A DNA stretch of 23,583 bases from a virus: positions 1 to 23,583 of the IMG/VR virus record IMGVR_UViG_3300037502_000704. One strand, 5' to 3'. The notes beneath the pieces were generated by a model, which was not told the DNA's origin, made no database searches, and saw only the letters and a list, made by a program, of their open reading frames with translations. Made by a program: the position numbers and the translations under genes. Positions 2 to 23,583 of this stretch are shown piece after piece (the stretch's first letter is position 1; each line of letters begins with the position of its first letter).

Positions 2-1414
2 AGCGGTGAAGTGCTGTCGATTCGTCGTAACTACAAAGCGAACGACCCGCTGCGCAAAAAGCGCCAGTATTTCGTTCACTACAAGTTTATGCCGGGCCTC
101 GGCTTCTATGGCTTCGGTCTTGTCCACCTTCTCGGCAATTTGTCACGTTCGTCAACTTCGCTTCTGCGCCAGTTGATCGATGCTGGCACGTTGTCGAACT
201 TGCCTGCTGGTTTCAAAGCCAAGGGCTTGCGCATTCAAGATCAAGAATCGCCGTTACAACCCGGTGAGTGGCGCGACGTCGATGCGCCCGGTGGTTCGCT
301 GCGCGAAAACTTAATGCCGCTTCCGTATAAAGAGCCGAGCGCAACGCTGATGCAGCTGCTTGGTTTCTGTGTTGAAGCCGCGCAAAAGTTTGTCGGCACG
401 ACCGACATGGGCATGGGCGACAGCAACCAAGAAATGCCTGTCGGCACAACGATTGCGCTTCTTGAACGCGGTGCGCGTGTCATGTCTGCAGTTCACAAGC
501 GCTTGCATCATGCGCAGGGCTTGGAGTTAAAGCTGCTCGCGCAAGTTTTTGCTGACTCGCTGCCGCCGGAATATCCTTACGAAGTTCCGGGCGCGGAGCG
601 CACGATTAAAGCTGCGGACTTTGATGATCGCATCGACATCATTCCGGTGTCCGATCCGAACATCTTCTCCATGACCCAGCGCATTTCGCTGGCACAAGAG
701 CAGCTCCGTCTCGCACAAGCTGCGCCGCAGATGCACAATTTGTATGAAGCCTATCGTCGTATGTACACCGCACTTGGTGTGCAGCAGATTGATCAGGTTT
801 TGCCGGCGCCTCCCGCCCCGCAACCACAAACACCGGCGCAGGAAAATGCGCGGTCGCTTGTTGTCCCTAACGGTGGCGCACCGCTGCAAGCTTTCCCAGA
901 GCAAGACCACCAAGCGCACATCATGTCGCACGTTTCGTTCTACATGATGCCGCTTGTGCAAGTGTCCCCGCAAGTACAGGGCGTGTTGCTGTCGCATATC
1001 TACGAGCACATCTCTCTCGCAGCGCAGCAGATCGTGAAGCAGCAAACACAACAGCCGGTGCAGGGCTTTGATCAGTTTGGTCAGCCCATGATGATGCCGC
1101 CTACACCTGTTGATGAGAACACCTACAACAACATGGTCGCGCAGGCCGAGGTCCAGTTGCAGCAGCAAGTCATGCAAATGATGCAGCCTCCGCAACCTCA
1201 AGGCCCAGATCCGATGATCCAGCTGCAGGAACAGAATCTGCAGATCAAGGCTCAGCAGATCGCGCAGAAGGCTCAAGCCGATCAGGCCCGCATTCAGCTT
1301 GATCAGCAAAAGCTGGCGATGAAAGACGCGTTGGATCGCGAACGGATGCAGTCCAACGAGGACATCGCGCAGCTTCGTGCTAACGTATCTCTGCAAAGAG
1401 CTGGGGTTGCGTAA
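2..1414 (+). CDS. Portal protein, P22-type, C-terminal part (5' end outside window)
   Basis: The frame is open to the left edge, so this is a partial gene of about 470 visible residues. The visible protein looks like the stem, wing and crown part of a podovirus portal: an early stretch with GLGFYGFGLVHLLGN, then helices ending in a glutamine-rich coiled coil (roughly residues 370-460) of the kind that forms the long C-terminal barrel in P22-type portals. The portal is the dodecameric ring at one capsid vertex through which DNA is packaged and ejected. A GTG at position 11 is available, but the reading frame upstream of it stays open and the conserved sequence seems already under way, so it is unlikely to be the true start. 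The stop overlaps the next ATG by one base (TAATG), which suggests translational coupling. Gln/Pro-rich linkers near residues 265-285 and 345-375 are low-complexity. Confidence 0.85.
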   Translation, partial: SGEVLSIRRNYKANDPLRKKRQYFVHYKFMPGLGFYGFGLVHLLGNLSRSSTSLLRQLIDAGTLSNLPAGFKAKGLRIQDQESPLQPGEWRDVDAPGGSLRENLMPLPYKEPSATLMQLLGFCVEAAQKFVGTTDMGMGDSNQEMPVGTTIALLERGARVMSAVHKRLHHAQGLELKLLAQVFADSLPPEYPYEVPGAERTIKAADFDDRIDIIPVSDPNIFSMTQRISLAQEQLRLAQAAPQMHNLYEAYRRMYTALGVQQIDQVLPAPPAPQPQTPAQENARSLVVPNGGAPLQAFPEQDHQAHIMSHVSFYMMPLVQVSPQVQGVLLSHIYEHISLAAQQIVKQQTQQPVQGFDQFGQPMMMPPTPVDENTYNNMVAQAEVQLQQQVMQMMQPPQPQGPDPMIQLQEQNLQIKAQQIAQKAQADQARIQLDQQKLAMKDALDRERMQSNEDIAQLRANVSLQRAGVA

Positions 1415-3408
1415 TGGCCAAGGGCGGCATTGGGGACCTTTATGTAAAGGTCGGCAAAGAGCTGCATAGCAAGAAGACACTGGACAACGTCCCGGTGCGG
1501 TGGCGCTCAGCCCCCGATCACCCTGAGACCCAGCTGGCCTATATCACCGACGAAGAAGCCGCTCTCCTTAAACAGCTAGACATCCACAACAGCGGCGTCC
1601 GCTACAACCATCACATCGGTCCTCTCGGCATCCCGTCTTACAACGGGGCGGGCTCTGGCGATTCCGCCGGGGATAATTCTGGTGGGGGCGGGGGCTTTGG
1701 TGGCGAAGGCGGCTCTCCCGCTGGCGATACCGGCGGCTCCATGGGCGGCGGTGATGTCGGCGGAACTGGCGGCTCCCCTGCCGGTGACGGCGGCGGAACT
1801 ATGGGCGGCGGCAACAACGACAGCGCTGGCGGCTCCCCTGCCGGTGACGGTGGCGGAGTCATGGGCGGTGGCGACGCCAACAATGCTGGGGGTTCCCCTG
1901 CCGGTGACGGCGGCGGTGTCATGGGCGGAGGCGGGGTCACCGGAGGTGCTGCGCCTGGCGCAGGTGCCGTAGGCCCCTCAACCAGCGGCCCCGATCAAAC
2001 AAATTCTCTGCAAGACGCTCTTGGCCAAACGGCGGCGGGGGCCTTCTCGGCCACTCAACTGGGCGTCACTGGCGTTCCCGCGGGCATGGCCCCTGACGTA
2101 TCCACGGCCCTTTCCACCATGGGCCTTGGTGATGTGACCATGGGCGCCCTCGGCATTGGCGGCATCATGGGCACGGGCACCGATATCGGTGGGGTTTCTG
2201 GCCTCGGTGGCGGTGCCGGTAACATGACCACGGGCGGTGCTTTCAGCAACACCATCGGCGATGCTTTGGGAAACATCGCTGGCCCGGTAGGCTTTGGCAC
2301 CACAATGCAAGGCTTTACCACGGATCAGGCCACAAGCACCCCTTTCGGCGGCGCACCAACAACGTCCCCGGCCTACTCGTCACCCTCTCTCGGCATGGGT
2401 TTTGGAGTCGGACCAACAGGCTTTAGCATGGGGGCTCCCTATGCGGGGGCTTCTCTCGATACTGGAATGCTGGCCACGGGCGGGATACCGGGATCTCGCC
2501 CAGACACCCTTTCTCAGCAGCAGTCTATTTTTGCGGACCAACAAGCTGCGGTCACAGCGGCTCGTTCCGTCGGGAGCCCCTACGTTGGAGCCCCCGGCGT
2601 TGCCGTTTCGCAGCCCAGCCAAACGGTGTCGCAGGCTCTTTCGACACCGGCCACCGCGGTATCCTTCTCCGCGTCAACCCCCGCTGCTACGGTAGCCGCT
2701 CAGACGGCGGCACAGACAGCGTCACAACCTACAGCGCAGCAAGCGACGGGCGTCTCCCCGACCGTTTCAGCCCCGTCCCAGACAACGTCCCCGACGCAGG
2801 CCACAACCTCGCCCACAACAGGCCCTTCCCGTTCAGCCAGCTCCATTAGCCAAGAGACATTTGCCGACCCACTTACAGGTGCTACTGTCTCGGTCACGAC
2901 TAACGACGATGGCACGGTTAACATCAGCAGCCCGGACCAGCAGCCTGGCTGGGGTCAATCCATGGTCGGTACTGCGGTTAATCTGGGCCTTGGCCTCACC
3001 GGCTTACCGGGCCTTATCGGGCAGGGCCTGTCTTATGGCCTGACAGGTCAGAGCGCTGGCACCAACGTAGCCAACGCGGTTTTTGGACAGGGTTTTTCCC
3101 CAGTAGGTGGTTTGCTCGGCGGCGGTCCGACAGCAGGGTATGACAGCGGTCCTTCAAACCCGAACGCTTCGCAGGGTGAAGGCGGTGGCGGTGGCATAGC
3201 GAGCTTGCCGGCGGGTCAGCAGTCCGGCTACAATCTTGCCCCCACAATCGATGCCACGTCGGGCGCGGGGTCCAGCTCAGCTCAAACAGCCCGCCCCGTG
3301 GTCATACTGCCCGATTTGTGGAACCAAGGTTTCCAGACATGGGGTGATCAAGTAATCTATGGGGCACCGGCCCCCACCCCGATACGCTACATCACCGGAT
3401 CCGTCTAA
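1414..3408 (+). CDS. Glycine-rich low-complexity phage protein with four 20-residue repeats
   Basis: This 664-residue protein has no family I can name. Residues 1-78 are a normal-looking folded region that begins MAKGGIGD and contains LAYITDEEAALLK (41-53) and GPLGIPSYN (69-77). Residues 99-178 are four tandem 20-residue units of the type GGSPAGDGGGxMGGG. The rest is rich in Gly, Ala, Ser and Thr, with a Ser/Thr/Gln/Pro-rich stretch near 395-480 and a mildly hydrophobic Gly/Leu-rich segment near 515-545. The N-terminal module and the GSPAGDTGG string both recur in the glycine-rich protein at the right end of the window (22171 onward). The gene sits directly after the portal with a one-base overlap, so a virion or DNA-ejection role is plausible but inferred. 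It could also be an adhesin-like or surface protein. Confidence 0.8.
   Translation: MAKGGIGDLYVKVGKELHSKKTLDNVPVRWRSAPDHPETQLAYITDEEAALLKQLDIHNSGVRYNHHIGPLGIPSYNGAGSGDSAGDNSGGGGGFGGEGGSPAGDTGGSMGGGDVGGTGGSPAGDGGGTMGGGNNDSAGGSPAGDGGGVMGGGDANNAGGSPAGDGGGVMGGGGVTGGAAPGAGAVGPSTSGPDQTNSLQDALGQTAAGAFSATQLGVTGVPAGMAPDVSTALSTMGLGDVTMGALGIGGIMGTGTDIGGVSGLGGGAGNMTTGGAFSNTIGDALGNIAGPVGFGTTMQGFTTDQATSTPFGGAPTTSPAYSSPSLGMGFGVGPTGFSMGAPYAGASLDTGMLATGGIPGSRPDTLSQQQSIFADQQAAVTAARSVGSPYVGAPGVAVSQPSQTVSQALSTPATAVSFSASTPAATVAAQTAAQTASQPTAQQATGVSPTVSAPSQTTSPTQATTSPTTGPSRSASSISQETFADPLTGATVSVTTNDDGTVNISSPDQQPGWGQSMVGTAVNLGLGLTGLPGLIGQGLSYGLTGQSAGTNVANAVFGQGFSPVGGLLGGGPTAGYDSGPSNPNASQGEGGGGGIASLPAGQQSGYNLAPTIDATSGAGSSSAQTARPVVILPDLWNQGFQTWGDQVIYGAPAPTPIRYITGSV
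1708..1947 (+). repeat. Four tandem 60-bp in-frame repeats
   Basis: Four consecutive 60-bp units start at 1708, 1768, 1828 and 1888. Each encodes 20 residues of the form GGSPAGD(T/G)GG(S/T/V)MGGG followed by 5 variable residues. The last two units are the most alike at DNA level, as expected of a tract that expands and contracts by slippage or recombination. Copy number probably varies between related phages. Confidence 0.95.
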
Positions 3409-3421
3409 AAGGAGACTATCC

Positions 3422-3589
3422 ATGCAGCCCAAGACCCCCAAAGTCGAAACATCTCAAACCATCGAAGGCCAAGGCTCGGTGCCGCTGGCTCAAGTGCAGG
3501 ACGTCAAGGTCGAAGCCGCCCCCAAGGGCCGGCAGAAATTCCTTGGTCAGGGTGCCATGGTCCGTAACAAGGGCTTCGTGGTCCGGTGA
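3422..3589 (+). CDS. Small basic phage protein, unknown function
   Basis: This is a 55-residue basic protein. I chose the ATG at 3422 over upstream in-frame codons because AAAAGGAGA (3407-3415) lies just before it and because an earlier start would run back into the preceding gene. The C-terminus reads KFLGQGAMVRNKGFVVR, which resembles the Gly-x-Gly basic tails of two other small proteins here (ends at 11320 and 12564). The stop overlaps the GTG start of the endolysin by four bases (GTGA), so the two are probably translated together. No function can be assigned. It sits between the glycine-rich protein and the lysis cassette. Confidence 0.7.
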   Translation: MQPKTPKVETSQTIEGQGSVPLAQVQDVKVEAAPKGRQKFLGQGAMVRNKGFVVR

Positions 3590-4320
3590 AAACGTCTCCC
3601 GCAGGAATCGCACTTATCCAAGAGTTCGAAGGCCGCAGGCTGGAGGCTTATAAATGCCCTGCGGGAATTTGGACGATTGGCTATGGCCACACGTCAGCGG
3701 CGGGTGAGCCGACCGTTGTCCAAGGCATGGTCATCACCAAGCAGGAAGCGGTCGATATTCTGAAGCGCGACCTCATTAAGTATGAGTCCGCTGTGGATCG
3801 TCTCGTCACCGTCCCCCTGTCGCAGAACCAGTTCGACGCCCTCGTCTCGTTCACATTCAACGTTGGCGAAGGAGCGTTGTCCAAGTCCACTTTGCTCAAA
3901 AAATTAAATCGCGGGGACTATTCTGCCGTTCCCGGTGAATTAATGAAGTGGACCAAGGGCGGGGGTAAGGAGCTACCCGGTCTCGTTCGCCGTCGCCGTG
4001 CAGAAGCGGCCATGTGGCGCGGGGTTGATGACACAACAGCTCCCGATATTGACGAGGCTCGCACGGAACCGGACGTGCCTAAGCCCGTTAAGAAGATCAC
4101 CCAGTCCAAGGAAGCCAATGCCGCGATTGCGGTGGGTGGTCTTTCTGGCGCTACGGTGGTGTCTGATGTCACGAACCGTCTCAAGGAAGCGGGTGACAAC
4201 GCCAAGTCTTTTGTTGATGCGATCATGGACCCGAACGTCTTGGTCCTGATCATCGTGGTCTTGGCGGCGATATTGATTTGGAACTGGCGTCGGCAGAGGC
4301 TTGAAGAGACCGGGGAATGA
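3586..4320 (+). CDS. Endolysin: GH24 lysozyme (muramidase) with C-terminal membrane anchor
   Basis: This 244-residue protein cleaves the N-acetylmuramic acid to N-acetylglucosamine bond of peptidoglycan at lysis. Residues 1-145 are a T4-lysozyme-like domain. The catalytic pattern is E15 (in QEFEG), C24 and T30 (in WTIGYGHT), with the E-x8-(D/C)-x5-T spacing of the GH24 family; the Asp of T4 lysozyme is a Cys here. FNVGEGAL and PGLVRRRRAEAAMW are typical downstream motifs. Unlike soluble or SAR endolysins, it continues through a linker (about 150-215) into a hydrophobic helix at 218-234 (VLVLIIVVLAAILIWNW) followed by Arg residues, suggesting a C-terminal anchor. The start is GTG, overlapping the previous stop. 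The i-spanin start overlaps this stop (ATGA). Confidence 0.93.
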   Translation: MKTSPAGIALIQEFEGRRLEAYKCPAGIWTIGYGHTSAAGEPTVVQGMVITKQEAVDILKRDLIKYESAVDRLVTVPLSQNQFDALVSFTFNVGEGALSKSTLLKKLNRGDYSAVPGELMKWTKGGGKELPGLVRRRRAEAAMWRGVDDTTAPDIDEARTEPDVPKPVKKITQSKEANAAIAVGGLSGATVVSDVTNRLKEAGDNAKSFVDAIMDPNVLVLIIVVLAAILIWNWRRQRLEETGE

Positions 4321-4547
4321 TCCCTTTCCTTTTCACACCGATTGGGAAATACCTAGCACTGGCTGCTATAGCACTGGTTCTAGGCACCGGGGTTTATTGG
4401 AAGATCAGATCCGACGCTATTGCTGAAGAGCAGGCGCGTCGGCAGCAAATCGAGCTAGAAAGGATGCGAGATGCGATACGTGCTGGTGATGCCGTTAATG
4501 TTGATCCTGAGCGGTTGCGCGACACAGACCGCTTCAGTCGAGACTAG
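4317..4547 (+). CDS. Inner-membrane spanin (Rz-like)
   Basis: A 76-residue protein with one N-terminal transmembrane segment (about residues 12-28, YLALAAIALVLGTGVYW) followed by a charged helical region rich in Glu, Arg and Gln and ending near DRFSRD. This is the layout of i-spanins, which span the inner membrane and reach through the periplasm to an outer-membrane partner to fuse the membranes at the last step of lysis. It is shorter than lambda Rz, so the identity rests on topology and on its place after the endolysin and overlapping an o-spanin. The ATG overlaps the endolysin stop by four bases. Confidence 0.75.
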   Translation: MIPFLFTPIGKYLALAAIALVLGTGVYWKIRSDAIAEEQARRQQIELERMRDAIRAGDAVNVDPERLRDTDRFSRD

Positions 4548-4653
4548 TTGCTCAGTCTTTGGCTACATTACGTGGAGTAAGAAGGACACTGACCAGACTA
4601 TTCAGCAGGTCAAAGTCCACAATGCTCGCCGTGAAGCTTTCTGCCAAGACTGA
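4471..4653 (+). CDS. Outer-membrane lipoprotein spanin (Rz1-like)
   Basis: A 60-residue protein with a lipoprotein signal: MRYVLVMPLMLILSGC, with lipobox L13-S14-G15-C16. Cleavage before C16 would leave a 45-residue lipidated protein in the outer membrane. The first 77 bases overlap the end of the i-spanin gene in another frame, the partly overlapping Rz/Rz1 arrangement. The mature part has two further Cys residues (C27 and C58), which could form disulphide bonds. An AGGA sits about 6-9 bases upstream of the ATG. The pair implies a Gram-negative host. Confidence 0.8.
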   Translation: MRYVLVMPLMLILSGCATQTASVETSCSVFGYITWSKKDTDQTIQQVKVHNARREAFCQD

Positions 4654-4664
4654 GGATTTATTTT

Positions 4665-4862
4665 ATGGACGATCTTTACATTGTCGAAAAACTGTACAAG
4701 ATTATCCGCGAGCGGCGCAGTGTCGTTGTGGAAGCTTTAACAGAAGGCAGCGTCCACGACTTTGCCGCTTATCGTCACCTTCGTGGCAAGCACGAGGCGT
4801 GGAACGAGATGGAATCTGAGCTCCGCCTTCTGCTGAAACAGAGTGAAAGAGACGATGAGTGA
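4665..4862 (+). CDS. Small acidic phage protein, unknown function
   Basis: A 65-residue protein, mostly helical by composition, with no signal peptide or membrane segment. A TGAGGA element overlapping the previous stop (4651-4656) precedes the ATG with an AT-rich spacer. It contains EKLYKIIRERR and ends acidic (KQSERDDE). Similar short proteins sit between lysis and head genes in other podovirus-like phages, but I know of no assigned role. Its last bases overlap the start of the co-chaperonin gene. Confidence 0.7.
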   Translation: MDDLYIVEKLYKIIRERRSVVVEALTEGSVHDFAAYRHLRGKHEAWNEMESELRLLLKQSERDDE

Positions 4863-5343
4863 ACTCATCCTACCGGAGCACGTAGCCCGGAAAATGAAGG
4901 CCAAGTCCGCCCCTAAAGATAAAGCGGCAGAAGAAACATCTCCTCTCGAAACAGCTTACGTGAAGCAAGAGGAGCTCTACCTAGATCCCACAAAAATGGA
5001 CATGTCGGCGATTGAGCGGCTCCCCAAGCCGACCGGTTGGCGCATGCTTGTTTTGCCTTTCCGCGGGGTGGGTAAGACCCAAGGCAACGTCTACCTCCCG
5101 GACGAGTATGTCGAGCGTCAAACCTTGGCTACCGTTGTGGGCTATGTGTTGCACATGGGCGCAGACTGCTACACCGACAAGGACAAGTTCCCTGGCGGTC
5201 CGTGGTGCAAGAAGGGTGATTGGGTTTTATTCGGCCGCTATGCCGGAGCCCGCTTTAAGATCGAAGGCGGAGAAGTCCGCATTCTTAACGACGATGAGAT
5301 CATCGCAACCATCGCGGACCCCAAAGACGTTCTGAACGTCTGA
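4855..5343 (+). CDS. GroES-like co-chaperonin (Cpn10 fold)
   Basis: A 162-residue protein. Residues 60-158 read as a Cpn10 domain: PTGWRMLVLPF, a mobile-loop region (GVGKTQGNVYLPDEYVERQ), TVVGYVLHMG, a KKGDWVLFGRYAG strand matching the GDIVIF region of GroES, and a C-terminal DDEIIATI matching the ESDILAIV end. V79-Y80-L81 sits where GroES has the I-V-L tripeptide that docks on GroEL. Residues 1-58 are an extra charged N-terminal extension. In T4, the analogous gp31 replaces GroES to fold the major capsid protein. Its position just before the scaffold and capsid genes suggests the same job with host GroEL. I chose the ATG at 4855 (8-base overlap) over an in-frame GTG at 4843. Confidence 0.85.
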   Translation: MSELILPEHVARKMKAKSAPKDKAAEETSPLETAYVKQEELYLDPTKMDMSAIERLPKPTGWRMLVLPFRGVGKTQGNVYLPDEYVERQTLATVVGYVLHMGADCYTDKDKFPGGPWCKKGDWVLFGRYAGARFKIEGGEVRILNDDEIIATIADPKDVLNV

Positions 5344-5365: not shown

Positions 5366-6283
5366 ATGAACGAAACTGAAGTTCTCAAAAAAGACGATGA
5401 AGAAGACTTCGAAGTAATCGAAGAGGCTGAAGAGTCCGCCCCGGAACCAGAGAAAGCCGCCGACAAGGCGGAAGAACCGGAAGCCAAGGCCGAGCCTGAG
5501 AAGGAAGAGCCGAAGCGGTCGGATGACGATCTGTCCGGCATCAGCGAGTCGGTCAAGAAGCGTATCGACAAGCTGACCTTCAAGATGCGGGAAGCGGAAC
5601 GCCGTGAGCAGGCCGCTATTGAGTATGCCCGTAGCCTGCAAGAAGAGAATAAAACCTTTAAGCAGAAGGCCGACCAGTTCAACCAAGGCTTCGTCACTGA
5701 GTACGAAAACCGGGTCAAGACTCAGCAGCAGCTGATCATGGACCGCTATCGTGCGGCAGTGGAAAGCGGTGATGTTGACTCTCAGGTCAAGGCGCAGAAC
5801 GAGCTGGCCAAGCTGGCCGTCGAGGAAGAGCGCGTCCGTGTTGCCAAGCAGCAGCGTGAGTATGAGGTGCAACGGGCGATCACCCCGCAGCCTCAGCCCC
5901 AACCTGCCCAGCAGCAGGCTCCGCGCCCCGATCCGAAGGCCGAAGCGTGGGCCGAGCGCAATGAATGGTTTGGCGCAGACGATGCCATGACCGCTACGGC
6001 GTTCGTTATCCACCGGAAGCTTGTTGAGGAAGAAGGCTACGACCCGACAAGCGATGAGTACTACGACGCTCTTGACCGCCGTATTCGGGGCGAGTTTCCT
6101 CATAAGTTCAAGCGCGAAGAACCCCGGCAAGCCCCGCCTCCGGTGGCGTCTGCCCGGCCTTCCGCTCGCTCGGAAAACAACCCGCGTCAGGTCAAACTGA
6201 CTCGTTCGCAAATTGAGATTGCCCGCAAGCTAGGAGTTAGTGTAAAAGACTATGCGCGGCAGCTTCAGAAACTCGCTCGTTGA
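5366..6283 (+). CDS. Capsid scaffolding protein
   Basis: A 305-residue protein with the composition of a phage scaffold. The N-terminal 60 residues are very acidic (DDEEDFEVIEEAEE), the middle is a long charged and Gln-rich helical region likely to form a coiled coil (about 65-170), then a Pro/Gln linker (174-190), a short region with EAWAERNEWFGADDAMTAT, and a basic C-terminus ending in ARKLGVSVKDYARQLQKLAR. Scaffolds fill the procapsid and bind the capsid protein through a small basic C-terminal helix. It lies two genes before the probable decoration protein and three before the capsid protein. AGGGA (5354-5358) serves as ribosome binding site for the ATG. Confidence 0.8.
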   Translation: MNETEVLKKDDEEDFEVIEEAEESAPEPEKAADKAEEPEAKAEPEKEEPKRSDDDLSGISESVKKRIDKLTFKMREAERREQAAIEYARSLQEENKTFKQKADQFNQGFVTEYENRVKTQQQLIMDRYRAAVESGDVDSQVKAQNELAKLAVEEERVRVAKQQREYEVQRAITPQPQPQPAQQQAPRPDPKAEAWAERNEWFGADDAMTATAFVIHRKLVEEEGYDPTSDEYYDALDRRIRGEFPHKFKREEPRQAPPPVASARPSARSENNPRQVKLTRSQIEIARKLGVSVKDYARQLQKLAR

Positions 6284-6297
6284 AGAAGGACACCGCC

Positions 6298-6753
6298 ATG
6301 GAACGTACACCGCGCTCTGAACAGAGCCGTGCCAAGTCTTCCCGCCCCAAAGCGTGGAAGCCCCCGTCCTCACTGGACGCACCTCCGGCACCGGAGGGCT
6401 TTGCCCATCGTTGGATCCGTATGGAAGCCAATGGGCAAGATGACCGGAAGAACTTATCCGCACGTCTCCGCGAAGGTTTTGAACTAGTTCGCGCCGAGGA
6501 GTATCCGGATTGGGAACTCCCCACCATCCAAGACGGCAAGCATGCCGGTATCATTGGAGTTGGTGGGCTTGTGTTGGCCCGGATTCCTCTTGAAATCGCA
6601 CAACAACGCAACGCGTATTATCGTCGCCAAACCAACGAGCAGCTTGCTGCAGTGGACAACGACTTGATGCGTGAGAGCAACCCCACAATGCCGATTCAGA
6701 AGCCTGAACGGCAAAGCAGAGTCACCTTCGGTGGAAATCGTTCCTCCGATTAA
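6298..6753 (+). CDS. Conserved phage protein between scaffold and capsid genes, unknown function
   Basis: A 151-residue protein. I chose the ATG at 6298 because GAAGAAGGA (6282-6290) lies 7 bases upstream; an in-frame TTG at 6280 is less likely. The N-terminus is basic and Pro-rich (about residues 1-35). The core has FAHRWIRMEANGQDD, REGFELVRAEEYPDW and GIIGVGGLVLARIPLEIAQQ, followed by a helical, charged tail. No transmembrane segment or catalytic motif is evident. Its slot between scaffold and capsid genes suggests a role in head assembly, such as an assembly cofactor, but that is inference from position alone. Confidence 0.75.
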   Translation: MERTPRSEQSRAKSSRPKAWKPPSSLDAPPAPEGFAHRWIRMEANGQDDRKNLSARLREGFELVRAEEYPDWELPTIQDGKHAGIIGVGGLVLARIPLEIAQQRNAYYRRQTNEQLAAVDNDLMRESNPTMPIQKPERQSRVTFGGNRSSD

Positions 6754-10101: not shown

Positions 10102-10436
10102 TGGCCAAAGCTTCTGACGTCAAGCGCACAGGCAAAGGGATCACCTACCGGGGTGTGACCTACGCCGGCTTTAACAAGCCGCGAGCCAGCACGAACCCGA
10201 AAAAGAAAAAGATGGTCCTTGCTAAGAAGGGCGACGAGGTGAAGGTCATTCACTTCGGCGATGCCAGCATGGGCCATAACTATTCTGCGGAAGCGCGTAA
10301 GAATTATCTTGCTCGCAGCGCAGGTATCAAAGGCAAGGATGATAAGTTCTCTGCTAATTACTGGGCCCGGAAAGTCCTTTGGGCTGGACCGGGTGGTTCT
10401 AAGAAGGCCCCTCCTGGCGGGAGCAGATTCAAATGA
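10101..10436 (+). CDS. Small basic conserved phage protein with HFGD motif
   Basis: A 111-residue, lysine-rich protein. It has a KKKKM cluster near residues 34-38, the motif VKVIHFGDASMGHNYSAEAR and the C-terminal part FSANYWARKVLWAGPGG. A related pattern (an R/HFGD core, then a basic Arg/Lys helix, then a K-x-YW segment) recurs in proteins of phages and some large eukaryotic viruses with no known function. The high positive charge suggests nucleic-acid or polyanion binding. It opens the run of small basic genes up to 12564. Both ends overlap neighbouring genes by 1-4 bases. Confidence 0.7.
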   Translation: MAKASDVKRTGKGITYRGVTYAGFNKPRASTNPKKKKMVLAKKGDEVKVIHFGDASMGHNYSAEARKNYLARSAGIKGKDDKFSANYWARKVLWAGPGGSKKAPPGGSRFK

Positions 10437-10675
10437 GTGCAAGCTTCGAATTTCTTTGGAACGCAATCCTTACACTCGTTGTCGCTCCAGCGGCATGGTT
10501 CCTGTTGCATTTGAACGGGAAGCAGGAGAAGCTTACGACCGGTCTGTCGGACACCCGTGAAGAGATGGCCAAGACCTACGTCACGAAGACAGATCTTCAT
10601 AACGACCTCAATCGGATCATGCAGCGTTTTGACCGGTTAGAAGAAAAGATTGATCGCATTACAGGAGCCCGGTGA
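10433..10675 (+). CDS. Small membrane protein with coiled coil, holin-like
   Basis: An 80-residue protein with one membrane segment (about residues 7-25, FLWNAILTLVVAPAAWFLL) followed by a charged helix ending in DLNRIMQRFDRLEEKIDRI, a likely coiled coil. A single transmembrane helix plus a cytoplasmic or periplasmic coil resembles XhlA-type or class III holin-like proteins that work with endolysins. It is about 6 kb from the endolysin, so a holin role is not certain. A second spanin-like or a virion membrane protein are alternatives. The ATG overlaps the previous stop (ATGA). Confidence 0.6.
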   Translation: MSASFEFLWNAILTLVVAPAAWFLLHLNGKQEKLTTGLSDTREEMAKTYVTKTDLHNDLNRIMQRFDRLEEKIDRITGAR

Positions 10676-11013
10676 TGAAGAAGATTGGTATGAAGCGTCG
10701 CATCGGCCGCGCTCCTAGCGCCAAGAGCATGATGCCCAGCGCGATGAAAATGGAAGCGCCCCGCAAGATGCTTGCGGAAGGCATGAAGTCTCCGAAGATC
10801 GAAGGTCCGATGGCCCCGGCCATTCCGGGCTTTAAGAAGGGCGGCAAGGTTAAGAAGTCCGATATCGTTGGCGCGGGTAAAACCCCAGCTGCCGCTCGTT
10901 CGGATTACGAAAAGAAGATGAAGAAGGCTGGCATGAAGCCTCTTCCTCCTGCCAAGAAGCCAAAGATGGGCCTCGGCATCATGATCATTCTTGGTAAGAA
11001 GAAAGGTAAATAA
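10675..11013 (+). CDS. Small Lys/Met-rich basic protein with GGKV element
   Basis: A 112-residue protein, extremely rich in Lys, Met, Ala and Pro, and so strongly basic and probably disordered. It contains FKKGGKVKKSD (DNA 10840-10851 encodes G-G-K-V), a variant of the element repeated in neighbouring genes. The C-terminus is GLGIMIILGKKKGK. I chose the ATG at 10675 (one-base overlap with the previous stop, ACAGGAG at 10661-10667) over the GTG three bases upstream. No family is recognised. Nucleic-acid binding is only an inference from charge. Confidence 0.7.
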   Translation: MKKIGMKRRIGRAPSAKSMMPSAMKMEAPRKMLAEGMKSPKIEGPMAPAIPGFKKGGKVKKSDIVGAGKTPAAARSDYEKKMKKAGMKPLPPAKKPKMGLGIMIILGKKKGK

Positions 11014-11014
11014 G

Positions 11015-11320
11015 ATGCCCGGTAAGATGAAGCCCAGCCAAAAGTTTTCGATTGTCCCCGAGGGAATGACCGAGCGCTTTCGTGAAATGCGCCGTGGCGA
11101 GGATGCCCCCAAGATGGCCCCCTCTGCTCCGCAGGGCGGTCCCAGCATGTCTGATCGTGATGTACTCAAGCGTATGATTGAGGACGAGAAGATGGACATG
11201 ATGGAAGACCGCGAGGAATACGCCAAGGGCGGCATGGTCCGCAAGAAGTCTTCTGGTCGTGGTATGATTAAAGTACGCGGTTACGGCAAGGCCCGCTCAA
11301 AGCCCTGCAAGATCTGCTGA
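11015..11320 (+). CDS. Small basic protein with GGMV element and RGYGKA tail
   Basis: A 101-residue protein starting at the ATG one base after the previous stop. AAAGG (11002-11006) is the ribosome binding site, and an in-frame start at 10991 lies inside the upstream gene. The middle is a charged helix (DVLKRMIEDEKMDMMEDREE), then YAKGGMVRKK, and finally a basic tail VRGYGKARSKPCKIC with two Cys residues in the last five. Both the GGMV element and a Gly-x-Gly-Lys-Ala tail occur again in the gene ending at 12564. Function unknown. Confidence 0.7.
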   Translation: MPGKMKPSQKFSIVPEGMTERFREMRRGEDAPKMAPSAPQGGPSMSDRDVLKRMIEDEKMDMMEDREEYAKGGMVRKKSSGRGMIKVRGYGKARSKPCKIC

Positions 11321-11332
11321 TAGGAGGCAGTT

Positions 11333-11665
11333 ATGGCTGGTTGTGGTTCAAAGAAAATGGCTAAAGGCGGCATGGTCTCTCCGCGTAAGGCGATGGCCAT
11401 GGGCAAGAAGCCGCAGAAGTTTGCGGCGGGCGGCATGGTTGCTGGCAAGCGCGTAGTAAACCCTGTAAAAATGCCTCGTGGCGCGGGCCCCAATGATAAT
11501 CCCAACCTCGGCTCGATGGGCCCCCGTGGCGCTGCCGCAGGCACCGTTCAAGCGGCCCCAATGGTCCGTCCAGGCACCCGCCCCATGGGCGCTGCCCCGG
11601 CAATCTCTGGCCCGAAGCGCCCCGGCTTTAAAAAGGGCGGCATGGTCAAGAAGGGCAAGAAGTGA
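11333..11665 (+). CDS. Small basic protein with three GGMV elements
   Basis: A 110-residue protein preceded by a perfect AGGAGG (11322-11327). It carries three copies of the element: MAKGGMVSPRK near the start, FAAGGMVAGK near residue 35 and FKKGGMVKKGKK at the very C-terminus. The stretches between are Pro/Gly/Ala-rich and probably disordered. It has no predicted membrane segment or enzyme motif. The stop overlaps the GTG of the next gene by four bases. The repeated element makes it the best single gene for testing what the motif does. Confidence 0.7.
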   Translation: MAGCGSKKMAKGGMVSPRKAMAMGKKPQKFAAGGMVAGKRVVNPVKMPRGAGPNDNPNLGSMGPRGAAAGTVQAAPMVRPGTRPMGAAPAISGPKRPGFKKGGMVKKGKK

Positions 11666-11856
11666 AAAAGCCCTCCAGGCCTAAGAGCAAGGTGAACGCT
11701 GCCGGAAACTATACAAAGCCCGGCATGCGCAAATCCCTGTTCGAAAAGATCAAAGCCTCCAATGTGCAAGGCACCGCGGCGGGGCAGTGGTCGGCTAGGA
11801 AAGCGCAGCTCTTGGCCAAGCAGTACAAGGCCAAGGGCGGAGGATATAAGGACTGA
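11662..11856 (+). CDS. Small basic conserved phage protein (AGNYTKPGMRK family)
   Basis: A 64-residue basic protein starting with GTG in a GTGA overlap. It has KVNAAGNYTKPGMRKSLFEKI and GQWSARKAQLLAKQYKAKGGGY, two well-conserved blocks that I recognise from many aquatic phage proteins, sometimes as a domain of larger proteins. The function is not established. Conserved Trp, Ser and Arg residues with many lysines suggest a small folded nucleic-acid-binding helix pair, which is inference. The stop overlaps the next ATG by one base. Confidence 0.7.
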   Translation: MKKPSRPKSKVNAAGNYTKPGMRKSLFEKIKASNVQGTAAGQWSARKAQLLAKQYKAKGGGYKD

Positions 11857-12101
11857 TGAAAAAGCCTCAGAAGTCCCTCAAAGCTTGGTCAGCGCAGAAG
11901 TGGCGGACAAAATCCGGCAAACCTTCTAGCCTGACCGGCGAGAGGTATCTTCCGGAAGCCGCTATTAAGTCCTTATCTTCGCAGGAGTATGCGGCCACAA
12001 CCAAGGCCAAGCGCGAAGGCAAGGCTTCTGGTAAACAGTTTGTGAAGCAGCCAAAGGCCGTCGCCGCGAAGGTGCGTCCTTTTCGCAAAAAAGGTCTTTG
12101 A
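11856..12101 (+). CDS. Small basic conserved protein (KW-x-T-SGKPS...RYLP family)
   Basis: An 81-residue basic protein. It has LKAWSAQKWRTKSGKPSS, TGERYLPEAAIKSLSSQEY and a Lys/Arg-rich C-terminal half (TTKAKREGKASGKQF). I recognise the pattern W..QKWRT.SG..S...GERYLP as a small family found in phages and some bacteria, with unknown function. GGCGGAGG (about 15-22 bases upstream of the start) is rather distant for a ribosome binding site, so coupling through the one-base overlap is more likely to drive translation. Confidence 0.7.
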   Translation: MKKPQKSLKAWSAQKWRTKSGKPSSLTGERYLPEAAIKSLSSQEYAATTKAKREGKASGKQFVKQPKAVAAKVRPFRKKGL

Positions 12102-12102
12102 T

Positions 12103-12564
12103 ATGGCCAAGATGACGAAAGCGCAGAAGAAAATCGGTAAGGTCATGCGGGAGTATAAAGAGGGTTCTCTCCACTCCGGCAAGAAGGGTCCTGTCGTGAA
12201 GTCGCGGAAGCAGGCGATTGCCATTGCGCTTTCGGAAGCTGGCAAGGCTCGTCCTCGTAAATATGCTGACGGTGGCATGGTCGATGTTGCGGCTCCCCCT
12301 GTCGGCATGACAAGCCTGTCCGGTCAGCCGCAAGCTCCGCAGGTCGGTCCTTACATGCAGCCCTCCGATTACGGTGTTCAGCAGGCTCCGATGCAGGCGC
12401 CCATGCAGCAACCTTCGCAGGTTCTCACCACCCGTAACCGCACCACGGGTTCAATCGGCACAGTTGGTGGTCCTGTTCAGACCTTTGCCAAAGGCGGCAT
12501 GGTCAAAAAACCGCGTGGTTGTGGTAAGGCTATCAAGGGCCTTACTAAAGGACGGATGTACTGA
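12103..12564 (+). CDS. DUF6496-like basic protein fused to a GGMV / RGCGKA tail
   Basis: A 153-residue protein. Residues 1-48 match what I know as the DUF6496-type domain: TKAQKKIGKVMREYKEGSLH, SGKKGPVVKSRKQAIAIALSEAGKA. This small basic domain is found in phages and bacteria, with no proven function. Two copies of the GGMV element follow (KYADGGMVDVA and FAKGGMVKKPR), separated by a Gln/Pro-rich linker. The end, PRGCGKAIKGLTKGRMY, is a basic tail similar to that of the gene ending at 11320. The stop overlaps the next ATG. The element thus appears attached to a recognisable domain rather than only in disordered proteins. Confidence 0.75.
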   Translation: MAKMTKAQKKIGKVMREYKEGSLHSGKKGPVVKSRKQAIAIALSEAGKARPRKYADGGMVDVAAPPVGMTSLSGQPQAPQVGPYMQPSDYGVQQAPMQAPMQQPSQVLTTRNRTTGSIGTVGGPVQTFAKGGMVKKPRGCGKAIKGLTKGRMY

Positions 12565-14942: not shown

Positions 14943-15911
14943 GTGACCGATGCAACCGTAGCCTTTGAAGGTTGGTCGCGCTCTGCTGGATGGGGTGAAC
15001 TCCCGTTCGGCGAGGGCGCGGTTACCATTGGGCTGGCTACGGGTCAGGTCGGTTCTGTCACCGTTGTAGGCATCGCCAATGTTTCCGTAACGGGGGTTTC
15101 CGCTACGGGGCAAGTGGGATCCGTTGCTGTTGAAGCGGATGCCAATGCTCCCGTCACAGGGGTCTTTGCTACAGGGCAAGTCGGTACTGTCACAGTCACG
15201 GGCGTTGCCAATGTCAGCGTCACGGGCCTTGAGGCCACAGGTTCCGCAGGCTCTGTCACTGTAGAAGCCGACGCCAATGTCGGTGTTACAGGGCTGTCGG
15301 CCACCGGAGCTTCTGGCTCTGTCACCGTAGAAGCCGACGCCAATGTCGATGTCACAGGCGTCGAAGCCACCGGCGAAGTCGGCACGGTCACCGCCAAATC
15401 GGTCAACAAGATCTTCGTCACAGGTGTCGAGGGAACTGGCGAAGTCGGCACTGTCGCGGTTGTCGGCAATGCCAATGTCTACCCCTCCGGCCTTGAAGCA
15501 ACCGGCGAAGTTGGCGACGTCTTCGTTAAGCGTGACGCCAATATCTACCCGTCCGGTCTTGAGGCCACAGGCTCACCGGGCTCGGTGGTCGTTGAATATA
15601 GCGCCCGCGTTTACCCCGGCGCGTTGCAGGCCTACACTTCGGTCGGCAATGTAACCATAAATCTTACAGCAAATGTCTATCCTGCCGGTGTTTCTGCACA
15701 AGGGATAGTGTCTTCTGTATTGGTTTGGGGTAATATCATCCCGAACCAAGACCCAGATTGGAACGGCATCACGCCCACTCAATCTGCCGGGTATTCCCCG
15801 CTTTCGCCGGACGTTGGCGATAACTGGACACCCATTGTCCCGTCACAGCCTCCCGGCTATACTCCAACAACCCCGTCTCAGTCACCGCACTGGACACAGA
15901 TTGCTGCATAG
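14943..15911 (+). CDS. Tandem-repeat structural protein with 22-residue units
   Basis: A 322-residue protein starting at GTG with TAGGG four bases upstream. Residues 1-27 include AFEGWSRSAGWGELPFGEGA. Residues 28-269 are about eleven 22-residue units of the type TGVxATGxVGxVTVxxxANV, strongly suggesting a repetitive beta-structure such as a solenoid or stacked sheets. Residues 268-322 are five 11-residue units ending in a proline (for example NQDPDWNGITP), with Trp and Tyr alternating at the sixth position. Lying just before the tail fibre, it is probably a tail-associated or fibre-accessory protein; the exact role is unknown. Confidence 0.75.
   Translation: MTDATVAFEGWSRSAGWGELPFGEGAVTIGLATGQVGSVTVVGIANVSVTGVSATGQVGSVAVEADANAPVTGVFATGQVGTVTVTGVANVSVTGLEATGSAGSVTVEADANVGVTGLSATGASGSVTVEADANVDVTGVEATGEVGTVTAKSVNKIFVTGVEGTGEVGTVAVVGNANVYPSGLEATGEVGDVFVKRDANIYPSGLEATGSPGSVVVEYSARVYPGALQAYTSVGNVTINLTANVYPAGVSAQGIVSSVLVWGNIIPNQDPDWNGITPTQSAGYSPLSPDVGDNWTPIVPSQPPGYTPTTPSQSPHWTQIAA
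15024..15749 (+). repeat. About eleven 66-bp in-frame repeats
   Basis: Eleven consecutive 66-bp units encode 22 residues each. Units 4 and 5 are nearly identical at DNA level around GTAGAAGCCGACGCCAATGT, which indicates recent duplication. Units 6-11 have drifted further. Confidence 0.9.
15744..15908 (+). repeat. Five 33-bp repeats encoding 11-residue Pro/aromatic units
   Basis: Five units (NQDPDWNGITP, TQSAGYSPLSP, DVGDNWTPIVP, SQPPGYTPTTP, SQSPHWTQIAA) follow the 22-residue repeats. The aromatic at position 6 alternates W, Y, W, Y, W, so the effective period is again 22 residues. Confidence 0.85.
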
Positions 15912-22170: not shown

Positions 22171-23583
22171 ATGCGGGACGTTATGGCTTATCAGGACGGT
22201 GGCATGGTCGGTGGTCAACAGCCCACGGACCAAGGTCTACCCAACATCAATCCAGAAGAAGCTTCGGTATTCGCACGTCTCCTGTCTGAGGTATCCCCGC
22301 AGGAGATTGAGCAACTTAAAGAACTTCAGGACGAGCTCGCCGAATCGACCCCCGACGAGCTGAGCACCATGCTGCAGGTGATCGACTTCTTGTTGACCCG
22401 CAGCAAGGCCTACCCGGAAGCCGTCAACTATCTTATTCAGCAGGGCCTCGTTGAGCCCGGCGATCTTCCTGTCCGTTATGTTCCGACCTTCTTTAGCATT
22501 CTACGGTCCATGGTCCTTAACGCCATTCAGGCTGCGGAGCAGCGTGGTCCGGCTCCGGAGATGGAAGAAGAGGTGCCTGCCTTTGCAAGGGGCGGCATCG
22601 TAAGCTTGAAGAGCAAGGCCGAGCAGGTCCGCAAGGCAGGTCGCGATGGCGACACAATGCTGGCGCACATCACACCCCGTGAAGCGCAAGCCTTGAAGGC
22701 CATGGGCGGTGCGGGAACAATCAACCCGAAGACCGGGTTGCCCGAGTTCAAGAGCTTCTTCTCCAAGGTCGGCAGCTTCCTGAAGAAGGCCGCTCCGGTC
22801 ATTCTTCCTATTGCTCTTAACTTCGTAGCCCCCGGTCTCGGAACGATTGCCTCTGGCGCTATCGGTGCGGGCGTCGGCTCTTTGATTGCAGGCGCCAGCC
22901 CCAAGCAGGCCTTGATCAACGGTCTCATCGGCGGCGCTACGGGTGCTCTCTATTCCGGCTTCTCTGGGAACACGGGCTCCTTCCTTGGAAACATTGCTTC
23001 TGGCGGGTTGCCCATGGGCCTCGGCGGCGGGCAAGGCTCCTTCCTCAACCCCAGCATCGCTGGCTTGTTTGGCGGTGGCGGTACGGGCAGCGTTGTCCCC
23101 GGCGTCACGTCGGGCCCCGGAAGCCCGCAACAACCTCTTGCTCCCAGCACCGGGTCTCCGGCAGGAGACACAGGCGGCATTGCTGGCGGGGCGATGAAGC
23201 CTGCCGCAACCGCCGGGCTAACCCCCACAGTTTCAGGGGCGGCTGCTTCCGGAACCGGTACAGGTTCTTCCGGGACAAGTTTCCTCTCAGGCTTGATGCC
23301 GAAGAATCCCATGACGGCTCTCGCACTGGGCGGCATCGGTGGTCTTGCTCTTGGGTCCTTGGCTGGTAGTCAGGAACAAGAGCAGCCCAAGACCGCGTTC
23401 CAGCAGATGGCTGAGATGGAGACCGGTGAAAAGCTTCTTGAAAAGTACCCCCAAAAATACGGCTTTAATGCTGCGTCATTCACCCCCATCCAGCGCCCAC
23501 GGACCTATAACGAAATCGTTGTTCCGAGCGTTGGCCCGGTTTACGCAAAAGACGGTGGACACATCTCCGGACCCGGCACAGGG
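22171..23583 (+). CDS. Glycine-rich protein with hydrophobic stretches, possible ejection or internal virion protein (3' end outside window)
   Basis: This open frame runs off the right edge, with 471 residues visible. GAGGG (22161-22165) lies five bases before the ATG. It begins AYQDGGMVGG, then has an acidic helical part (residues 29-135), then FARGGIVSLKSKAEQ (138-152), TMLAHITPREAQALK (162-176) and TINPKTGLPEF (183-193). A hydrophobic Gly/Ala/Ile-rich region follows (about 207-265, APVILPIALNFVAPGLG onward), with a second near 381-400. GSPAGDTGG is at 328-336. The visible end, VYAKDGGHISGPGTG, is the start of a motif common in phage tape-measure and internal proteins. Such glycine-zipper segments suit membrane insertion during DNA ejection; this role is inferred. 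Confidence 0.75.
   Translation, partial: MRDVMAYQDGGMVGGQQPTDQGLPNINPEEASVFARLLSEVSPQEIEQLKELQDELAESTPDELSTMLQVIDFLLTRSKAYPEAVNYLIQQGLVEPGDLPVRYVPTFFSILRSMVLNAIQAAEQRGPAPEMEEEVPAFARGGIVSLKSKAEQVRKAGRDGDTMLAHITPREAQALKAMGGAGTINPKTGLPEFKSFFSKVGSFLKKAAPVILPIALNFVAPGLGTIASGAIGAGVGSLIAGASPKQALINGLIGGATGALYSGFSGNTGSFLGNIASGGLPMGLGGGQGSFLNPSIAGLFGGGGTGSVVPGVTSGPGSPQQPLAPSTGSPAGDTGGIAGGAMKPAATAGLTPTVSGAAASGTGTGSSGTSFLSGLMPKNPMTALALGGIGGLALGSLAGSQEQEQPKTAFQQMAEMETGEKLLEKYPQKYGFNAASFTPIQRPRTYNEIVVPSVGPVYAKDGGHISGPGTG

Follow-up and report, generated by a model that had tools for sequence, protein, structure and literature searches.

A GH24 endolysin with a C-terminal membrane anchor and a portable membrane module in a virus record

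The endolysin gene and its lysis cassette

The window analysed here is a virus record of 23,583 bases, taken as a whole. At 3586-4320 it encodes a GH24 lysozyme with a C-terminal membrane anchor, which opens a cassette in the order endolysin, i-spanin and overlapping o-spanin, and it carries a holin candidate further along the same strand:

3586..4320, + strand: C-terminally anchored GH24 endolysin (GTG start, 244 aa)
3586..4023, + strand: GH24 catalytic domain, residues 1-146 (PF00959 match, triad, pLDDT)
4102..4317, + strand: portable C-terminal membrane module, residues 173-244 (72 residues), made up of SKxxN, a weak Gly/Ala-rich segment, a spacer (residues 198-215), a strong TM helix and a basic tail
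4117..4173, + strand: weakly hydrophobic Gly/Ala/Ser/Thr-rich segment, approximately residues 178-196 (best 17-residue hydropathy 1.49)
4231..4284, + strand: strong transmembrane helix, approximately residues 216-233 (hydropathy 2.71; modelled helix 216-242)
4285..4317, + strand: basic, conserved C-terminal tail WRRQRLEETGE (R235 conservation, tail pN/pS)
4317..4547, + strand: i-spanin (Rz-like) with an N-terminal TM, its start overlapping the endolysin stop (ATGA); weak Rz-like PHROG matches, best E 0.0094
4471..4653, + strand: o-spanin lipoprotein (Rz1-like), lipobox LSGC; phrog_1275 Rz-like spanin, E 4.4e-11
10433..10675, + strand: holin candidate of 80 aa, with one N-terminal TM and a charged, coiled-coil-like remainder, about 6.1 kb downstream of the endolysin

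The catalytic half of the endolysin matches Phage_lysozyme (PF00959) at residues 13-140 with an E-value of 7e-51 and 172.2 bits, against a curated cut-off of 22.3. Its triad (E15, C24 and T30) shows no variation in 27 aligned sequences and follows the E-8x-D/C-5x-T rule described for T4-like lysozymes (PMC3556154). C24 is also the single cysteine to be read from the 244-residue translation. In an AlphaFold2 model based on 27 sequences, residues 1-140 reach block pLDDT values of 88-98, and the disordered linker at 149-203 lies almost entirely below 50. A fold search with the endolysin returned GH24 lysozymes and endolysins, and the lysozymes and endolysins returned from solved structures align within residues 2-147, a stretch that does not reach the module. 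Soluble endolysins match the GH24 domain at more than 50% identity, and a tblastn search of annotated phages yielded 3455 records. Query coverage is 80% or more in 18 of these, which include a pair of environmental phages with 50% identity.

The o-spanin reading frame opens within the i-spanin gene, shifted to +1, and extends beyond it, as in the overlapped type of two-component spanins. Neighbourhoods, here and for the holin candidate below, were counted by distinct endolysin sequence, with fragments included and near-identical phages entered as separate rows. On this basis, profiles built from the lineage locate an i-spanin within 300 bp of the endolysin in 42 of the 77 relatives with 600 bp of downstream sequence, and an o-spanin within 600 bp in 63 of them. 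The corresponding count for soluble GH24 controls (0/20) says little, since the spanin profiles were seeded from the endolysin's own lineage.

Several other genes in the window deserve mention. A GroES-like co-chaperonin (4843-5343; PF00166, E 2.5e-9; phrog_3188, E 6.9e-15) lies just downstream of the lysis genes, and a Gly-rich protein of 664 aa (1414-3408), which contains GGSPAGDGGG repeats and matches no Pfam family, is encoded between the window-opening gene and the endolysin. Six small, very basic proteins follow one another at 10672-12564, four of them with KGGMV, AGGMV, DGGMV or KGGKV, and a frame near 22,190, truncated by the contig end, opens with a similar DGGMV motif. The 322-aa protein at 14943-15911, made of NVxVTGVxATGxVGTVTV-type repeats, is likely a beta-rich fibre or decoration protein.

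The C-terminal membrane module and its relatives

The initial annotation had proposed a C-terminal membrane anchor on this lysozyme, with NWRRQR at the end of the helix and no obvious export route at the N-terminus, and our analysis upholds these three observations. The top 19-residue hydropathy window of the protein (213-231) has a mean of 2.71, a value that only 5 of 5000 composition-preserving shuffles reach. In the AlphaFold2 model one unbroken helix spans 216-242; its block pLDDT is about 76-88, falling to 57 in the last few residues. Protein similarity identified 42 related loci (L002-L043), one of which (L038) runs off its contig, and the C-terminal helix is kept in all 41 that are C-terminally complete. 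NWRRQR occupies residues 233-238, immediately past the helix, and the C-terminal tail beyond the strong helix reads NWRRQRLEETGE. The best hydropathy windows are C-terminal without exception (12/12), and hence the endolysin carries no N-terminal signal or SAR-like helix by this measure; an N-terminal SAR endolysin is ruled out on the same grounds. The weak Gly/Ala-rich segment, with a hydropathy of 1.49, is modelled without confidence and is a possible second, marginal membrane helix.

Conservation extends beyond hydrophobicity. In an alignment of 25 sequences S174, K175, W232 and R235 are invariant and N178 and W234 nearly so, and the pattern throughout is one of SKxxN, weak Gly/Ala-rich segment, spacer, strong helix and a W-x-W-R-[RK] tail; R235 is invariant in A1 and conserved at 90% or more in A3. 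Counting ratios over eight pairs give a pN/pS of 0.12-0.48 for the module and 0.00-0.28 for the tail, amino-acid changes being rarer than synonymous ones in the module and most of all in the tail. Chance hydrophobicity of the C-terminus is ruled out by the shuffles, the retention of the helix in 41/41 relatives and these ratios.

None of the 16 module members scanned points to a convincing Pfam or PHROG family. The best matches, to TrbC (E 3e-4, 4 of 16 members), phrog_37298 (E 4.8e-4, 3 of 16) and phrog_17373 'peptidase' (E 0.0012, 5 of 16), look to us like hydrophobic or low-complexity ones. The best holin match among the same 16 members has an E-value of 0.14, which leaves a holin-family assignment unsupported, and the suggestion of a holin-fused lysis strategy is not borne out. 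A tblastn search of phages with the last 63 residues gave no match at E-values up to 10, though two of the records hold full-length relatives; the BLAST low-complexity filter being the likely cause, this blank is no evidence of absence.

A profile of the last 74-86 residues retrieved 150 relatives from viral contigs, and the analysis continued with the 80 top-scoring loci. The enzyme that precedes the module in these 80 loci is GH24 in 70 and non-GH24 in ten; the latter appear by eye to share one enzyme type, and the two that were scanned are GH19 (PF00182, E 1.6e-8 and 2.3e-11). The module profile also gave four matches in bacterial genomes (genome_contigs). In one of them, from a Phreatobacter MAG (L167), the enzyme ahead of the module is an N-acetylmuramidase (PF11860, E 5.4e-41). 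In those from a Hyphomonas MAG (L168) and an Acidithiobacillales MAG it is one that reads by eye as GH24, and the last match (L170) was discarded as a chance one in an unrelated frame. Two of these MAGs make it plausible that the hosts of the module lineage are in part Alphaproteobacteria. One membrane module, with conserved S-K-x-x-N and W-x-x-R motifs, is thus common, by sequence comparison, to three unrelated muralytic domains (GH24, GH19 and PF11860), and hence the module, rather than the enzyme, is suggested as the carrier of the delivery function.

Other small membrane proteins and anchored enzymes were encountered in this survey. Immediately ahead of GH19-type endolysins, a second small membrane protein of these cassettes is encoded, some 155 aa long and with a strong helix at its C-terminus (L140:2940-3413, L146:2961-3425 and similar loci); the L146 protein matches phrog_32327 (E 1.1e-4). 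DUF6127 (PF19622) proteins with a C-terminal helix adjoin the module endolysins of Hyphomonas (L168:3233-3481, E 2.8e-21) and Phreatobacter (L167:4605-4910, E 6.1e-5, below cut-off), and are possible holins. A further group (L064-L081) combines GH24 with a C-terminal helix ending in RERxxKWxxG; module membership is unsupported for L064-L080 (hhalign 1.4), the likeness being one of layout only.

The architecture itself is already known, and the protein at 3586-4320 is a further case of it with a published and tested homolog, LysAP of Acidovorax phage AP1 (OM049504). The premise of the initial annotation that endolysins are either soluble or of the N-terminal SAR type is, in fact, out of date (PMC6498227, PMC7143992, PMC8943055, PMC8879335). 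LysAP and the window endolysin share 41.1% identity over residues 1-209 (tblastn), and the AP1 C-terminus matches the module profile with an hhalign probability of 94.0 (E 1.4e-7, 73 columns). That probability was reached by none of 40 controls with the part before the helix shuffled (best 61.5), nor by any of 40 with all blocks shuffled (best 22.5). A probability of 90 was likewise reached by none of 64 unrelated C-tail membrane ORFs; a 65th, L154, exceeds it and is a true GH19-type module member. Enzyme identity and this controlled C-terminal profile comparison establish homology with LysAP for both halves of the protein.

The holin candidate and its family

The endolysin, the i-spanin and the product of 10433-10675 are the sole main genes of the window with a clear TM; the product of 6280-6753 has a marginal internal helix (hydropathy 1.68). 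No multi-helix holin gene is found in the window, and no one-TM holin gene lies directly upstream of the endolysin, the upstream gene (3423-3589) having no clear TM. The 10433 family, defined by a cut at E 1e-3 that leaves weak adjacent matches in L072, L073, L075 and L080 uncounted, comprises 56 loci, always with one member per locus and always on the strand of the endolysin. A member lies within 1300 bp upstream in 35 of the 70 distinct C-anchored endolysins with enough sequence, overlapping or touching the endolysin in six of these 35, whereas none of the 21 soluble GH24 controls has one there. A member does lie 1 bp downstream in a single soluble GH24 case (L055). Three near relatives (L012, L014 and L005) have a homolog at 79-84% identity, separated from the endolysin by about 5.9 kb, a distance similar to that in the window. 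A search of eight near or module-bearing records, some of whose contigs may be fragments, left four without a match and gave one weak match.

The family carries no curated holin label, PHROGs describing it as 'lipoprotein' or unknown. Its resemblance to HolAP, the holin of AP1, is weak (hhalign 33.7, with 30 shuffles reaching at most 1.8), and the Siskin holin is not matched (1.0). From the neighbourhood and the TM we infer that 10433-10675 is a holin or trigger gene that would have become separated from the endolysin in this lineage. The initial annotation, which had itself singled out 10433 as a candidate holin, had considered a holin-independent strategy. This idea is weakened by the difference between C-anchored and soluble enzymes, and is not the best reading because the family recurs directly upstream of such endolysins in many relatives. 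The recurrent one-helix neighbour provides both a specific trigger candidate and a way to recognise these cassettes in uncultured phages.

Topology, lysis mechanism and known systems

How an enzyme placed ahead of its sole membrane helix reaches the cell wall is the question posed in the LysAP and Enc34 papers (PMC8879335, PMC8943055). The export problem raised by the initial annotation is a real one; for LysAP itself, the authors state that the route to the periplasm requires more study (PMC8879335, section 4). Across 59 distinct modules, the mean number of K and R is highest in the 18 residues ahead of the weak segment (3.63) and in the tail (3.15), lower in the spacer (1.02) and the weak segment (0.69), and lowest in the strong helix (0.07). 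This distribution fits a cytoplasmic tail, as had been proposed, and is compatible both with a hairpin that keeps the enzyme inside and with a single pass that leaves it outside. The weak segments have a mean hydropathy of 1.29 and consist of G, A, S, T or N at 64%; 41 of the 59 contain K or R and none is charge-free, and hence a stable hairpin is not assured.

We consider it probable that the window protein is a LysAP-type endolysin that is stored at the inner membrane through its module and exposed by a small one-helix holin-like protein. In such a scheme, the GH24 enzyme would be synthesised in the cytoplasm without a signal, and the 72-residue module would insert in the inner membrane, its basic tail remaining in the cytoplasm, with the strong helix either spanning alone or pairing with the weak Gly/Ala-rich segment as a hairpin. 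The endolysin would thereby be stored at the membrane until the product of 10433-10675 compromised or depolarised it and exposed the enzyme to peptidoglycan, after which the adjoining spanin pair would disrupt the outer membrane. This topology, the LysAP-like behaviour of the window protein and the holin role of 10433 are inferred. LysAP alone kills and lyses Escherichia coli, and its lysis is abolished by deletion of residues 194-216 (the helix) or by E15A, is little affected by R222A and is delayed by 10 mM azide; the one-TM holin HolAP speeds this lysis and contacts LysAP in a two-hybrid test (PMC8879335). Against the storage scheme count the distance of 10433 from the endolysin in the window, the lack of a curated holin label for its family, the weak or absent matches to HolAP and the Siskin holin, the four of eight searched records that gave no match, and the 35 of 70 relatives with no family member within 1300 bp upstream. 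The strong helix (2.71), moreover, does not resemble the release-prone helix of SAR endolysins, and for M4Lys, which has another enzyme domain, a nearby ORF is dispensable for lysis in E. coli and azide brings a delay but no stop (PMC7143992).

A different account, close to the topology of the initial annotation, is the model of the LysAP authors (PMC8879335), according to which Sec or another route carries the enzyme to the periplasmic side (N-out, C-in), where the helix holds it inactive until depolarisation frees it. The basic tail past the helix agrees with it, as do the azide delay, the ability of LysAP to lyse alone when helix and E15 are intact and the N-out, C-in topology that its authors predict for M4Lys (PMC7143992). 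We nonetheless regard it as rather unlikely. The Enc34 authors state that a hydrophilic domain at the N-terminus is not exported from a C-terminal signal by any known route (PMC8943055), and azide is described as delaying the lysis of M4Lys and not preventing it (PMC7143992). C24 is the sole cysteine of the endolysin, so that disulfide caging of the P1 Lyz type within the protein is impossible and can be ruled out. Finally, the strong helix looks too hydrophobic to be released easily.

It seems improbable that the module functions in the manner of a holin or otherwise disrupts the membrane, one protein then both breaching the membrane and cutting the wall. Its portability across three enzyme folds would suit this role, and so would the lysis that overexpressed LysAP and M4Lys bring about with no holin present and the bacteriostatic effect of the M4Lys TMD alone (PMC7143992). 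M4Lys requires its TMD to lyse on its own, but the TMD alone gives no lysis (PMC7143992). The lack of a supported holin-family match (best E 0.14 among 16 members) and the recurrence of separate one-helix genes beside module endolysins also argue against it. That the helix is a passive tether or by-product, and that the enzyme leaves the cytoplasm through the large holes of an ordinary holin, as the soluble endolysins akin to its GH24 domain might suggest, is very improbable given a tail and SKxxN motif that are conserved and under constraint, the loss of lysis on helix deletion in the homologous LysAP (PMC8879335) and a window devoid of any multi-helix holin gene.

We put forward, as a tentative and rather speculative proposal, that the 72-residue module may be a self-contained delivery domain that would drive, from the C-terminus and post-translationally, the signal-peptide-free passage, through or across the inner membrane, of any muralytic enzyme fused to it (GH24, GH19 or PF11860), with the 10433 family as its dedicated trigger. 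Such a role is testable by swapping enzymes onto the module. Two points go beyond the papers cited here, namely that the module is portable and that it is linked to a small family of one-helix proteins: in the open-access literature, outside which most subscription journals fall, we found no report of either.

Among known systems, LysAP shares with the window protein the GH24 domain, the lack of an N-terminal signal, the linker, the C-terminal TM, the basic tail and a homologous module. It differs in having D24 in the triad position of C24, and in a holin gene of the PF16082 Phage_holin_2_4 family directly upstream, whereas the window candidate lies some 6.1 kb downstream and belongs to another family; the AP1 paper reports no spanin (PMC8879335), in contrast to the spanin pair of the window. 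Module proteins of uncultured phages and MAGs have the same C-terminal module, with an adjoining spanin pair in most, although some present a GH19 or PF11860 enzyme instead of GH24. The chi-like type, represented by M4Lys, Enc34 ORF39 and Siskin, resembles the window in placing the enzyme first, followed by C-terminal membrane helices, and in a one-TM holin candidate. The record of Siskin is annotated in the order one-TM holin, C-anchored endolysin, i-spanin and o-spanin, its holin being described as N-out (PMC6498227), and the i-/o-spanin order of the window is that of Siskin and Enc34 (PMC8943055). The Siskin C-terminal domain is unsupported as a homolog of the module (hhalign probability 5.3), the layout alone being alike. 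The chi-like enzyme domain is PHA02564 and not PF00959. A chi-like endolysin would have two C-terminal TM helices with both termini inside, and a two-helix C-terminal domain is reported for Enc34 (PMC8943055); in the window protein the first segment, weak (1.49) and modelled with low confidence, is a marginal candidate for such a helix. The SAR endolysins P1 Lyz and R21, in turn, share with it the T4-like lysozyme family, the E-C/D-T triad and membrane tethering, but their helix is N-terminal and weakly hydrophobic, and that of the window protein is C-terminal and strong.
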